Shown here in pieces: positions 36,474 to 39,482 of a stretch of DNA of 46,717 bases. The DNA is taken from positions 1 to 46,717 of the forward strand of contig PFUL01000175.1 of assembly GCA_002790095.1 (NCBI GenBank). Reading direction: 5' to 3'. The stretch comes from Elusimicrobia bacterium CG_4_9_14_3_um_filter_62_55. Its GTDB lineage: Bacteria > Elusimicrobiota > Elusimicrobia > UBA1565. The notes below the pieces were generated by a model. That model did not search any database, was not told the DNA's origin, and worked only from the letters and a program-made list of their open reading frames with translations. The stretch's first letter is position 1. Every line of letters starts with the position of its first letter. The translations under genes were made by a program, and so were the position numbers.

Positions 36474-37496
36474 ATGAATATCTGCTTCTGCATCGATCGC
36501 TGGTCGGACATCAAGCCGGAAACGAACTCGACGCTCCGGATGATACACGAAGCCGTTTTGCGCGGCCATCGGGTCGCGCTGATGTATCCCCGCAAACTCG
36601 GAGTTCGGGACAACGTCACCACCTGCATGTTCCATATCTTCGAGCCGATGGATAAGGTCCCGGACCGGGCGCAGACGTTCTACGCGAAGGCGGCCTTCCG
36701 CAAGCAGCGTCTTCCCGTTAAGGGCTTCGACATCGTCGTGCTCCGTGCCGATCCTCCGATCGACACTTTGATGCTCAACTTCCTGGACTCGGTCAAGGAC
36801 GACACTTTGATCGTCAACAGCATCGACGGCTTGCGCATGGCCAACAACAAGCTTTACCTGACGACCTTCGACGACGCCCACGACATCATCCCCGAGACCT
36901 ACGTTTCGAAGGACAAAGAGTTTCTCTACGACATCATCATGTCCAGCGAACGCGACAAGATGATCATGAAGCCGATCGACGGCTTCGGCGGAAGCGGCGT
37001 TATTCTGCTGGAGAAGCGCGCCAAGAGCAACATCCGCTCCCTCCTTGATTTCTATATCGGCGACGACGAGCGGCGCTACGTGATCGTCCAGGAGTACGTC
37101 GAAAGCGAGGACGGCGGCGACGTTCGCGTCTGGATGCTCAACGGCGAGGCGTGCGGCGCCTACAAGCGCGTCCCCCACGAGGGCGATGTCCGCGCCAACC
37201 TCCACTCCGGCGGAACCGCCGTCAAGCACGTCATGACCTCCCATGAGAAGATGATCTGCGAGCGCGTCGGAAAGAAGCTCGCGGTGGACGGTTTGCTGAT
37301 CGCCGGTTTGGACATCATCGGCGGCAAACTGATCGAGGTCAACGTGGTCAGCCCCGGCGGGATCGTCAATATCAACAAATTCAACAAGACCCGTCTCGAG
37401 AAGCAGGTTCTCGATTTCCTGGAGCAGCAGCACCGGCGCCGGGAGTCGGGCTTCGAGCGCAAGATGGCGTTCAAGAAACAGGTCCTCGAGAGCTGA
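36474..37496 (+). CDS. ATP-grasp ligase, glutathione-synthetase-like
   Basis: A 340-residue ATP-grasp enzyme that should ligate a carboxylate to an amine with ATP. The N-terminal Rossmann-like part begins MNICFCIDRWSDIKPETNST. The substrate region has VVLRADPPID, as in GshB. The ATP-grasp core shows MIMKPIDGFGGSGVILLEK (nucleotide-binding loop), YVIVQEYVESEDGGDVRVWMLNGEACGAYKRVP and GLDIIGGKLIEVNVVSPGGIVNINKFN (metal-binding end). It has the full prokaryotic glutathione synthetase layout, but no glutamate-cysteine ligase is nearby. Its only partner is the amidohydrolase-DUF1704 gene starting 3 nt after its stop. The acceptor substrate is therefore open. Confidence 0.9.
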   Translation: MNICFCIDRWSDIKPETNSTLRMIHEAVLRGHRVALMYPRKLGVRDNVTTCMFHIFEPMDKVPDRAQTFYAKAAFRKQRLPVKGFDIVVLRADPPIDTLMLNFLDSVKDDTLIVNSIDGLRMANNKLYLTTFDDAHDIIPETYVSKDKEFLYDIIMSSERDKMIMKPIDGFGGSGVILLEKRAKSNIRSLLDFYIGDDERRYVIVQEYVESEDGGDVRVWMLNGEACGAYKRVPHEGDVRANLHSGGTAVKHVMTSHEKMICERVGKKLAVDGLLIAGLDIIGGKLIEVNVVSPGGIVNINKFNKTRLEKQVLDFLEQQHRRRESGFERKMAFKKQVLES

Positions 37497-37499
37497 GGC

Positions 37500-39482
37500 A
37501 TGACCGAAGCCGAGATCCTAGGGAAGATCGCCCGGGGGGAATGCTTCTCCGGGGTTTCCGAAGACGACTCATTCTTCATCGCCGTCGATGAATGGGTTCC
37601 CTATGTCTGCGCGGCGATCCACAACGGCGGCAACTTCCGCAAGGACCTGCTCCCCAAGATGGCGCTTTCCAAGTTCGAGCGCTGGCAGGAAGAGGATCCG
37701 AAGACGGGACGCTTCATCTCGGCGTTCCCGATCCGGATTATCGCCCATGATTCCCGCTATGAGTACGATCTGAACCGACCCCCGTCGGAATGCATCTACG
37801 ATTCCGCCTGGGGGAAGACGGTTTGGAAATCGCCGCTGACGAAGGAGGATCGCCGGGTCTCGCTTGAGAAGCATCGCCGCTTTTACCGCGTCCTCACGGC
37901 GGTGGTCAAGCGCGTCGAGACTCAGTTCGACCGCTGTCTCGTCTACGACATGCATTCCTTTTGCGTGCGCGACTACCCGAAAAGGTCCCAGCCCCTGTTC
38001 AACCTGGGGACGAAGAACGTCGATCGGGTCCGCTACCGGCAAACCGTCGAGAGTTGGCTGCACGAGCTCACGCGCATCCGGCTTCCGCACGTGTCCGGAC
38101 GCACCTCCGAGAACGAGAACTTTCAAGGCGAAGGATTTTTGCTCAAGCACCTGACGAAGCGTTCGAAGAACGTTCTGGTGCTTGCGACCGAGATCAAGAA
38201 GGTCTATTGCGACGAGAAAACCGGCGACGTCTTTCCCGCGATCATGCTTGCGCTTCGCGAGGGGCTTAAGCGCGCGGTCGTCAACACCGCGAGCGTGTTC
38301 GCCGCCGGGGGGGCGTCGCACAAGTACGGCAAGCGCCAGCGTCTGCTCTCATCGACGATCACCGACGATATTCGAACCGTCGACGAGCGCCTGCACAAGC
38401 TGTCGCGCGGCTTCGATCTCCTCGATTTCATCAACCCGGTGAATAAGGAATCCGAGAAGAACCGGTTCCTGCGCTCAAAGTTCCGGACTCGGCCGCGATT
38501 TCGGCATAAGCCGCTTCCGATCGATCCGATCGTCTTCAAGCGCGAGGCGTATTCCATCCCCGTGTCCCGCATCCGCGACGCGCAGATCCAGTCGATGTAC
38601 CGCGACATCATTGAGGCGCAGGTGTCCTTGGTCGACATGCTGGCGCGGCGCGGCAGCAAGGATTTCTTGTTCGAGTCGCTTAAGCAGTACGGAGAACCCG
38701 ACGCGGCGGATCTGGCCAACGCCCGCTATCTGGTGCATTTCCCGGTCGAGTCGCGTCCGATGCGGCCGATCCGGGCCGAGGCGGCCGTACGGCGTATGCG
38801 CGCGACGGTAAAGCTCTACGGTCAGGAGTGCAGGGTCTGCATCGGAGAGAATCTTTCGGCGAAGGCGATGTTCTCTCCGGGCCGCAGGGAGCTTCAGATT
38901 CAGCAGGACGCCTCGTTCTCGGAAGGAGAGATCCTGGCGCTCGGCCATCATGAAGTGGGCGTCCATCTTCTAACGACGATCAACGCCCGTTCGCATGAAC
39001 TTAAATTCACCCGGACCGGCATGCCCGCGTATTCGTACACGCAGGAGGGTCTTGCGATCGTCAGCGAATACTTGTCGGGAGGGATGAGCGTCTCCCGCCT
39101 TCGGGAACTCGGCTGCCGGGTCCTCGCGGTGCGCAGCATGATCCGCGACTACGATTTTAAAACGACCTTCGAATTGCTCGTCGACGAATGCGGACTGAAC
39201 CCCGACTCGGCGTTCGACGTCGCCACGCGCGCCTACCGCGGCGGCGGGCTCACCAAGGACTTCCTCTACCTGAAAGGCTTTAAGGACGTGCTAAACCTCT
39301 ACCGTTCGGGAGAGCGCTGGCGCTTCCTGCTGCTCGGAAAGGTGTCGCTTGACTACCTGGACATCCTCGAAGAGCTGGTGTCGCGCGGATTTCTGAAGAA
39401 GGCGCCGTTGATGCCGATTCCGTTTCGCAAGCCGAAGAAGGCTTCCGCGGCGGTAGAGTTCCTGGTCTCCGGAATCAAATAG
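37500..39482 (+). CDS. N-formylglutamate amidohydrolase-DUF1704 (QEGLA) fusion
   Basis: A 660-residue protein joining two domains. Residues about 1-265 match N-formylglutamate amidohydrolase: FIAVDEWVPYVCAAIHNGGNFR, DRCLVYDMHSFC, TSENENFQGEGFLLKHL and a following ATEIKKVYCDEKTG. Residues about 300-640 are DUF1704, the QEGLA-motif family: HEVGVH (484-489) is an HExxxH zinc motif, followed by YSYTQEGLAIVSEYLSGG (QEGLA 515-519, Glu523). Human DUF1704 proteins (MATCAP/TMCP) are zinc carboxypeptidases that remove C-terminal Tyr or Glu from tubulin. Coupling with an ATP-grasp ligase one codon upstream suggests addition and removal of a terminal amino acid. The bacterial substrate is unknown. The domains are usually encoded by separate neighbouring genes. 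Confidence 0.88.
   Translation: MTEAEILGKIARGECFSGVSEDDSFFIAVDEWVPYVCAAIHNGGNFRKDLLPKMALSKFERWQEEDPKTGRFISAFPIRIIAHDSRYEYDLNRPPSECIYDSAWGKTVWKSPLTKEDRRVSLEKHRRFYRVLTAVVKRVETQFDRCLVYDMHSFCVRDYPKRSQPLFNLGTKNVDRVRYRQTVESWLHELTRIRLPHVSGRTSENENFQGEGFLLKHLTKRSKNVLVLATEIKKVYCDEKTGDVFPAIMLALREGLKRAVVNTASVFAAGGASHKYGKRQRLLSSTITDDIRTVDERLHKLSRGFDLLDFINPVNKESEKNRFLRSKFRTRPRFRHKPLPIDPIVFKREAYSIPVSRIRDAQIQSMYRDIIEAQVSLVDMLARRGSKDFLFESLKQYGEPDAADLANARYLVHFPVESRPMRPIRAEAAVRRMRATVKLYGQECRVCIGENLSAKAMFSPGRRELQIQQDASFSEGEILALGHHEVGVHLLTTINARSHELKFTRTGMPAYSYTQEGLAIVSEYLSGGMSVSRLRELGCRVLAVRSMIRDYDFKTTFELLVDECGLNPDSAFDVATRAYRGGGLTKDFLYLKGFKDVLNLYRSGERWRFLLLGKVSLDYLDILEELVSRGFLKKAPLMPIPFRKPKKASAAVEFLVSGIK

Follow-up and report, generated by a model that had tools for sequence, protein, structure and literature searches.

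A conserved bacterial module linking a GshB-like ATP-grasp ligase to FGase and MATCAP zinc hydrolase domains

A conserved unit of three predicted activities

The forward strand of contig PFUL01000175.1 from Elusimicrobia bacterium CG_4_9_14_3_um_filter_62_55 (46,717 nucleotides, here called the window) contains two closely spaced genes, encoding a GshB-like ATP-grasp ligase (36474–37496) and a protein (37500–39482) in which an N-formylglutamate amidohydrolase-like zinc amidohydrolase (FGase) domain is fused to a MATCAP/DUF1704 (QEGLA) zinc carboxypeptidase domain. The linkage of ligase, FGase, and MATCAP as one conserved unit is firmly supported by its recurrence in other bacteria, and, judged by conserved residues, all three linked active sites are complete. 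The three-activity module is real, conserved, and apparently undescribed, and of a known general type in which an ATP-grasp ligase is paired with hydrolases. A literature search found no paper naming it; a 2009 amidoligase survey may touch some such neighbourhoods, and one Vibrio vulnificus paper lists VV2_1203 (COG3930) and, as the neighbouring tag, VV2_1204 (glutathione synthetase). We propose, at a little under an even chance, that the module is a cycle of ligase, C-terminal carboxypeptidase, and deacylase for building and dismantling a small glutamyl peptide with a blocked N terminus.

The conservation survey combined whole-genome searches with plasmid records, and included 395 Bacteroidota genomes and 341 genomes of the window's phylum. 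Among the Bacteroidota, PF08014 (MATCAP) is present in 19 genomes and a ligase of the PRK12458 type in 18 (20 genes scoring at least 396 bits, the next best reaching 215); both occur together in 18 genomes (hypergeometric P = 3e-30, uncorrected for relatedness), and all 20 ligase genes lie within 2.5 kb of a MATCAP gene. The exception, genome G527, encodes a divergent MATCAP and no ligase of the subfamily. A search of genome contigs with the fusion protein found one Bacteroidales relative. In Photobacterium sp. DA100 and GJ3, and in one Bacteroidales genome, FGase and MATCAP are fused and overlap the ligase gene by 20–23 nt, while Rhizobiales replicons show the tight order FGase, QEGLA, “glutathione synthetase.” In every listed locus except one, the junctions between the three activities are mostly operon-like, ranging from overlaps to gaps below 100 nt. 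Additionally, distance matrices for ligase and MATCAP are congruent (Mantel r = 0.89; 0 of 5000 permutations). Within the window's phylum, a PRK12458-type ligase at the 362-bit level, and the operon itself, occur in this genome only (1/341). Such rarity would fit a merely fortuitous adjacency of the two genes; that reading is already contradicted by co-occurrence and adjacency in Bacteroidota, Photobacterium, and Rhizobiales, and its probability is very small. Horizontal acquisition of the operon by this genome is likely; its GC content (~0.60) is not an outlier, and a congener of the source genome (78% complete) has a ligase that scores 202 bits and is closer to GshB.

In the window, the ligase stop codon (TGA, 37494–37496) is followed by three nucleotides (ggc) and the ATG of the FGase-MATCAP gene, so the layout described in an earlier sequence-only reading, two genes 3 nt apart, matches the open reading frame coordinates exactly. 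Pfam identifies the flanking genes as adenosine deaminase, SecY-like, and E1 dehydrogenase subunits; because these look unrelated, we treat the ligase and the fusion as a two-gene cassette. PADLOC returned no defence-system match. FGase-MATCAP was not found in viral contigs. These contigs gave one match to the ligase (L059), immediately preceded by the end of a QEGLA gene; it resembles host sequence on the border of a provirus.

Gene order divides the loci into two types. Type I (the window, Bacteroidales, Photobacterium, and flavobacteria-type loci) runs ligase, FGase, MATCAP, the last two fused or separate, and the fusion occurs in several of its members. Type II (Rhizobiales and other Bacteroidota) runs FGase, a MATCAP protein of 610–660 aa, and ligase. 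Type II MATCAP has ~240 additional N-terminal residues, which hhalign relates to FGase (probability 96%, E = 4.5e-9) and from which the FGase catalytic motifs are missing; this region is best read as a decayed FGase, with an intact FGase usually encoded next door. The presence of a decayed FGase fused to MATCAP beside an intact copy argues that FGase is an integral partner rather than a passenger. Two loci (L043, L044) are hybrid operons, in which a type I ligase and FGase sit together with a MATCAP and a second ligase, both of type II. On a Sinorhizobium medicae plasmid (L069, 773–7329), group II intron reverse-transcriptase genes lie between FGase and QEGLA, and in three Vibrionaceae loci (L008, L009, L055) genes for a DUF413/MaoP-like protein and a LysR regulator lie upstream of the operon.

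Family placement and catalytic residues

The four Pfam matches in the two proteins (GSH-S_N, GSH-S_ATP, FGase, and MATCAP) all score far over their gathering cut-offs. The ligase (340 aa, ATG start) comprises a GSH-S_N domain (residues 1–121, 36474–36836; 72.5 bits) and a GSH-S_ATP ATP-grasp domain (residues 125–304, 36846–37385; 167.1 bits). When aligned with Escherichia coli GshB (1gsa), its R91, K126, K166, R218, R232, R240, D280, E288, and N290 correspond to R86, K125, K160, R210, R225, R233, D273, E281, and N283, several of which we take to be functional residues of GshB. All nine are invariant across 15 operon relatives, and the predicted ATP/Mg and substrate-arginine residues are complete. 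PRK12458 (NF009110) is by far the best NCBIfam model, at 362.5 bits against a curated cut-off of 408, and places the ligase in this subfamily; the Bacteroidota operon ligases score 396–472 bits. The glutathione synthase models PRK05246 (271.6 bits, cut-off 272) and TIGR01380 (225.2 bits, cut-off 299.05) also fall short, and RimK ranks after PRK12458 and the glutathione synthase models. The tubulin tyrosine ligase (TTL) family is absent from the ligase's Pfam matches, which are to GSH-S and RimK instead.

In the fusion protein (660 aa, ATG start), the FGase domain spans residues 34–234 (37599–38201; PF05013, 66.4 bits against a gathering score of 28.9) and keeps M14-like catalytic residues, with the motifs IHNGG (40–44), DLNR (90–93), and DMHS (150–153). 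H41, G43, E64, E65, D66, P67, D90, N92, R93, D150, H152, S153, and E231 are invariant in the alignment of relatives. The HutG equivalog model TIGR02017 scores only 15.6 bits (cut-off 278.75), and the FGase profile had no match among solved structures. In aspartoacylase, H21, E24, and H116 bind zinc and N70-R71 bind substrate (PMC10998430); by analogy with the latter pair, the DLNR motif suggests an FGase substrate bearing a free carboxylate.

The MATCAP domain (residues 322–657, 38463–39470) scores 295.4 bits against PF08014 (gathering score 27) and is a close relative of the TIGR02421 QEGLA family, at 324.2 bits under a cut-off of 338.65. Its HEVGVH (HExxxH) zinc motif occupies residues 484–489 (38949–38966), and its QEGLA motif residues 515–519 (39042–39056), E516 being the presumed third zinc ligand. 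H484, E485, H489, and E516 are invariant in 19 MATCAP sequences, and the domain aligns with the human detyrosinase KIAA0895L (7z5g; E = 4e-24) over HEIG(T)H, EEGLA, and RG...KD..YL.G...GK. KIAA0895L works as a metallocarboxypeptidase, in which HExxxH is joined by a third ligand from the EEG motif (PMC10499314). The HExxxH-plus-glutamate site therefore has its full set of aligned residues, and the domain is probably a carboxypeptidase. The motifs earlier picked out from the letters, HEVGVH, QEGLA, and an amidohydrolase HNGG, were all located, with an H/E/G core invariant in relatives.

Stand-alone relatives of the domain also exist. Two genomes of the window's class encode MATCAP proteins of 387–389 aa (L014, 3665–4834; L015, 6073–7236) that are apparently secreted, judging by putative signal peptides, and have a eukaryote-like EEG in place of QEG, and shorter stand-alone QEGLA proteins occur in Pseudoalteromonas and Legionella.

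Substrate, salinity, and competing explanations

Under the proposed cycle, a small acidic peptide, acyl- or gamma-blocked, would have its carboxylate activated by the ligase and be extended by an amino acid, glutamate being the likeliest; the MATCAP domain would then take off the added C-terminal residue; and FGase, or AspA, would split the remaining N-acyl amino acid to yield free glutamate (or aspartate). Neighbouring genes point toward such a substrate. Members of the FGase and AspA families use N-acyl glutamate or aspartate as substrate, and in three loci where FGase was not found (L051, L052, L054) an AstE/AspA deacylase gene adjoins the ligase (PF24827, 67.9 bits for L051), co-directional in two of the three. 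The suggestion made from sequence alone that the amidohydrolase belongs to the system is borne out both by the presence of FGase in the unit and by this deacylase of another N-acyl-amino-acid family. In eight flavobacteria-type loci, a Na+/dicarboxylate (SDF dicarboxylate/glutamate) symporter gene (PF00375, 427 bits) precedes the ligase.

Published expression data suggest when the cycle might operate. In RNA-seq of Photobacterium damselae RM-71 at 1% versus 3% NaCl, A0J47_RS17020 (“GshB”) rose 38.4-fold, RS17025 (QEGLA) 27.5-fold, and RimK 52-fold (PMC10308900); the study's authors treat RS17020 as a glutathione synthetase. We read RS17020/RS17025 as this operon because the two tags follow one another and other Photobacterium share this gene order. 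In Pseudomonas, RloA proteases are linked to an ATP-grasp gene, cleave poly-glutamate, and are needed in hypo-osmotic stress (PMC12239564). By comparison, a role in adjusting a glutamate polymer or glutamyl peptide as salinity drops is plausible, and the cycle would probably tune the pool of a glutamate-rich anion or osmolyte upon a fall in external salinity.

Several observations weigh against the proposed cycle. Its acidic or N-acyl substrate rests on the logic of the FGase and AspA families and on a neighbouring transporter whose adjacency may reflect shared descent among related genomes; the AspA gene of L052 lies on the opposite strand; Vibrio HDW18 (L008) has FGase-MATCAP without an adjacent ligase; and the identification of the Photobacterium damselae pair is drawn from annotation and from gene order in other members of the genus. 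A writer and an eraser in one operon could also mean salvage remodelling. Finally, three operons contain rhodanese genes, a hint of sulfur chemistry, and a gamma-Glu-Cys-like substrate is possible because the ligase retains the arginines of E. coli GshB.

These last points bear on whether the product is glutathione or a close thiol analogue, with the ligase a true glutathione synthetase and FGase-MATCAP recycling or degrading the thiol peptide. This reading, which we consider unlikely but the most serious of the alternatives, draws on the GSH-S_N/GSH-S_ATP domains, the conserved GshB arginines and metal ligands, the near-threshold PRK05246 score, the rhodaneses, and a weak GCS2-like open reading frame in the source genome (contig C74), very divergent and scoring 24.9 bits over one 29-residue stretch. 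Against it, the ligase falls under both glutathione synthase cut-offs, and GshB needs neither a carboxypeptidase nor a formylglutamate deacylase partner. Moreover, neither the source genome nor any of the 18 Bacteroidota carriers has a PF04262-type gshA (PF08886-type GshA was not searched for), and GCS2 is found in five of these carriers and absent from 13; from the missing PF04262 gshA we conclude that this is probably not a plain glutathione operon. The earlier remark that no glutamate-cysteine ligase is present is correct for the window and, as regards PF04262, for the genome as a whole, the one divergent GCS2-like frame lying on another contig. The combination once named as counting against a coupled system, a gshA elsewhere in the genome and no co-occurrence of DUF1704 with the ligase, was not what we found: PF04262 is missing, and ligase and MATCAP share 18 genomes.

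The GCS2-like frame of the source genome overlaps a Peptidase C26 gene of the gamma-glutamyl hydrolase type (L016, 2957–4791, contig C74), a possible second ligase/hydrolase pair. Contig C22 of this genome carries another RimK/GshB-like ATP-grasp frame, the second, next to a GNAT-nitrilase fusion (L017, 3665–6892), and a similar fusion lies ~2 kb upstream of the triad in the Bacteroidales locus L002.

A catabolic role was also considered, in which imported N-acyl-glutamyl peptides (folate tails or conjugates, for instance) are fully hydrolysed by FGase-MATCAP and a product is trapped or joined again by the ligase. Two hydrolases fused in one protein, the symporter upstream in eight loci, the AspA gene where FGase was not found, and an aminotransferase gene that starts 2 nt after MATCAP in L002 are all consistent with salvage. 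However, the triad has no further catabolic genes as conserved companions, and the hydrolases are accompanied by a dedicated ATP-consuming ligase that co-evolves with MATCAP; we regard this explanation as improbable.

Somewhat more doubtful still is a protein target, whereby a bacterial protein gains a C-terminal residue through the ligase and loses it through MATCAP, as in tubulin tyrosination or the action of RimK/RimB on RpsF. Such a cycle would be a bacterial counterpart of tubulin C-terminal modification, with the fused amidohydrolase recycling released acyl-glutamate, an equally doubtful extension. MATCAP homology to tubulin carboxypeptidase, the RimK/RimB precedent (PMC12239564), and the co-induction of RimK in Photobacterium damselae favour it, but the ligase is of the GshB type, neither TTL nor RimK; the substrates of the FGase/AspA partners are single N-acyl amino acids, DLNR being expected to bind a free carboxylate; and no companion small open reading frame is conserved in the flanks of divergent lineages, sharing being mainly among flavobacteria-type loci with common flanking genes. 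The sequence-only reading had set the pair beside tubulin tyrosine ligases and their erasers. Its writer/eraser pairing survives in that ligase and hydrolases form a conserved unit lacking PF04262 gshA, whereas the TTL-like ligase does not, given the NCBIfam ranking and Pfam matches; nor did the analysis yield support for a protein target or terminal tyrosine, or the shared small peptide it had suggested seeking across lineages.

Relation to known systems and wider meaning

The closest parallel in logic to the proposed glutamyl peptide cycle is the NAAG cycle of RIMKLA/RIMKLB (ATP-grasp), glutamate carboxypeptidase II/III, and aspartoacylase (PMC10998430, PMC10995945, PMC7907349), in which a ligase joins glutamate to an N-acylated acidic amino acid, a zinc carboxypeptidase takes the glutamate off again, and an M14-like deacylase cleaves the remainder, as we infer for the module. 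Aspartoacylase belongs to the AstE/AspA family that adjoins the pair in three bacterial loci. The module differs in forming one operon, in its GshB-type ligase, in the use of MATCAP (an HExxxH gluzincin), and in a deacylase that is usually FGase, here fused. RimK/RimB and the Pseudomonas rlo operon likewise couple an ATP-grasp ligase to a hydrolase, acting on glutamate polymers with a hypo-osmotic requirement (PMC12239564), but their eraser is a retropepsin-like aspartic protease, FGase and MATCAP are absent, and the ATP-grasp subfamily is another. MATCAP/TMCP with TTL (PMC10499314) shares the MATCAP catalytic domain and motifs, whereas the module's ligase is not TTL-like, FGase is fused, and no tubulin-tail substrate is in view. 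GshA/GshB glutathione synthesis offers the same GshB domain architecture and active-site residues, but the module has no PF04262 GshA, its hydrolase partners are nearly always present, and its ligase scores lie under the glutathione synthase cut-offs. Similarly, the N-formylglutamate deformylase HutG shares the FGase Pfam domain, but the module's FGase is far under the TIGR02017 cut-off and fused to MATCAP, and no histidine-degradation genes occur among the neighbours identified.

Bacterial DUF1704/QEGLA proteins currently carry the uninformative name “flavohemoglobin expression-modulating”; their link to a specific ligase and deacylase gives them a testable biochemical function. PRK12458-type “glutathione synthetase” genes, probably including the low-salt-induced gshB of Photobacterium damselae, may not be glutathione synthetases, and the module may reveal the chemistry of the wider family that includes the eukaryotic tubulin detyrosinases.

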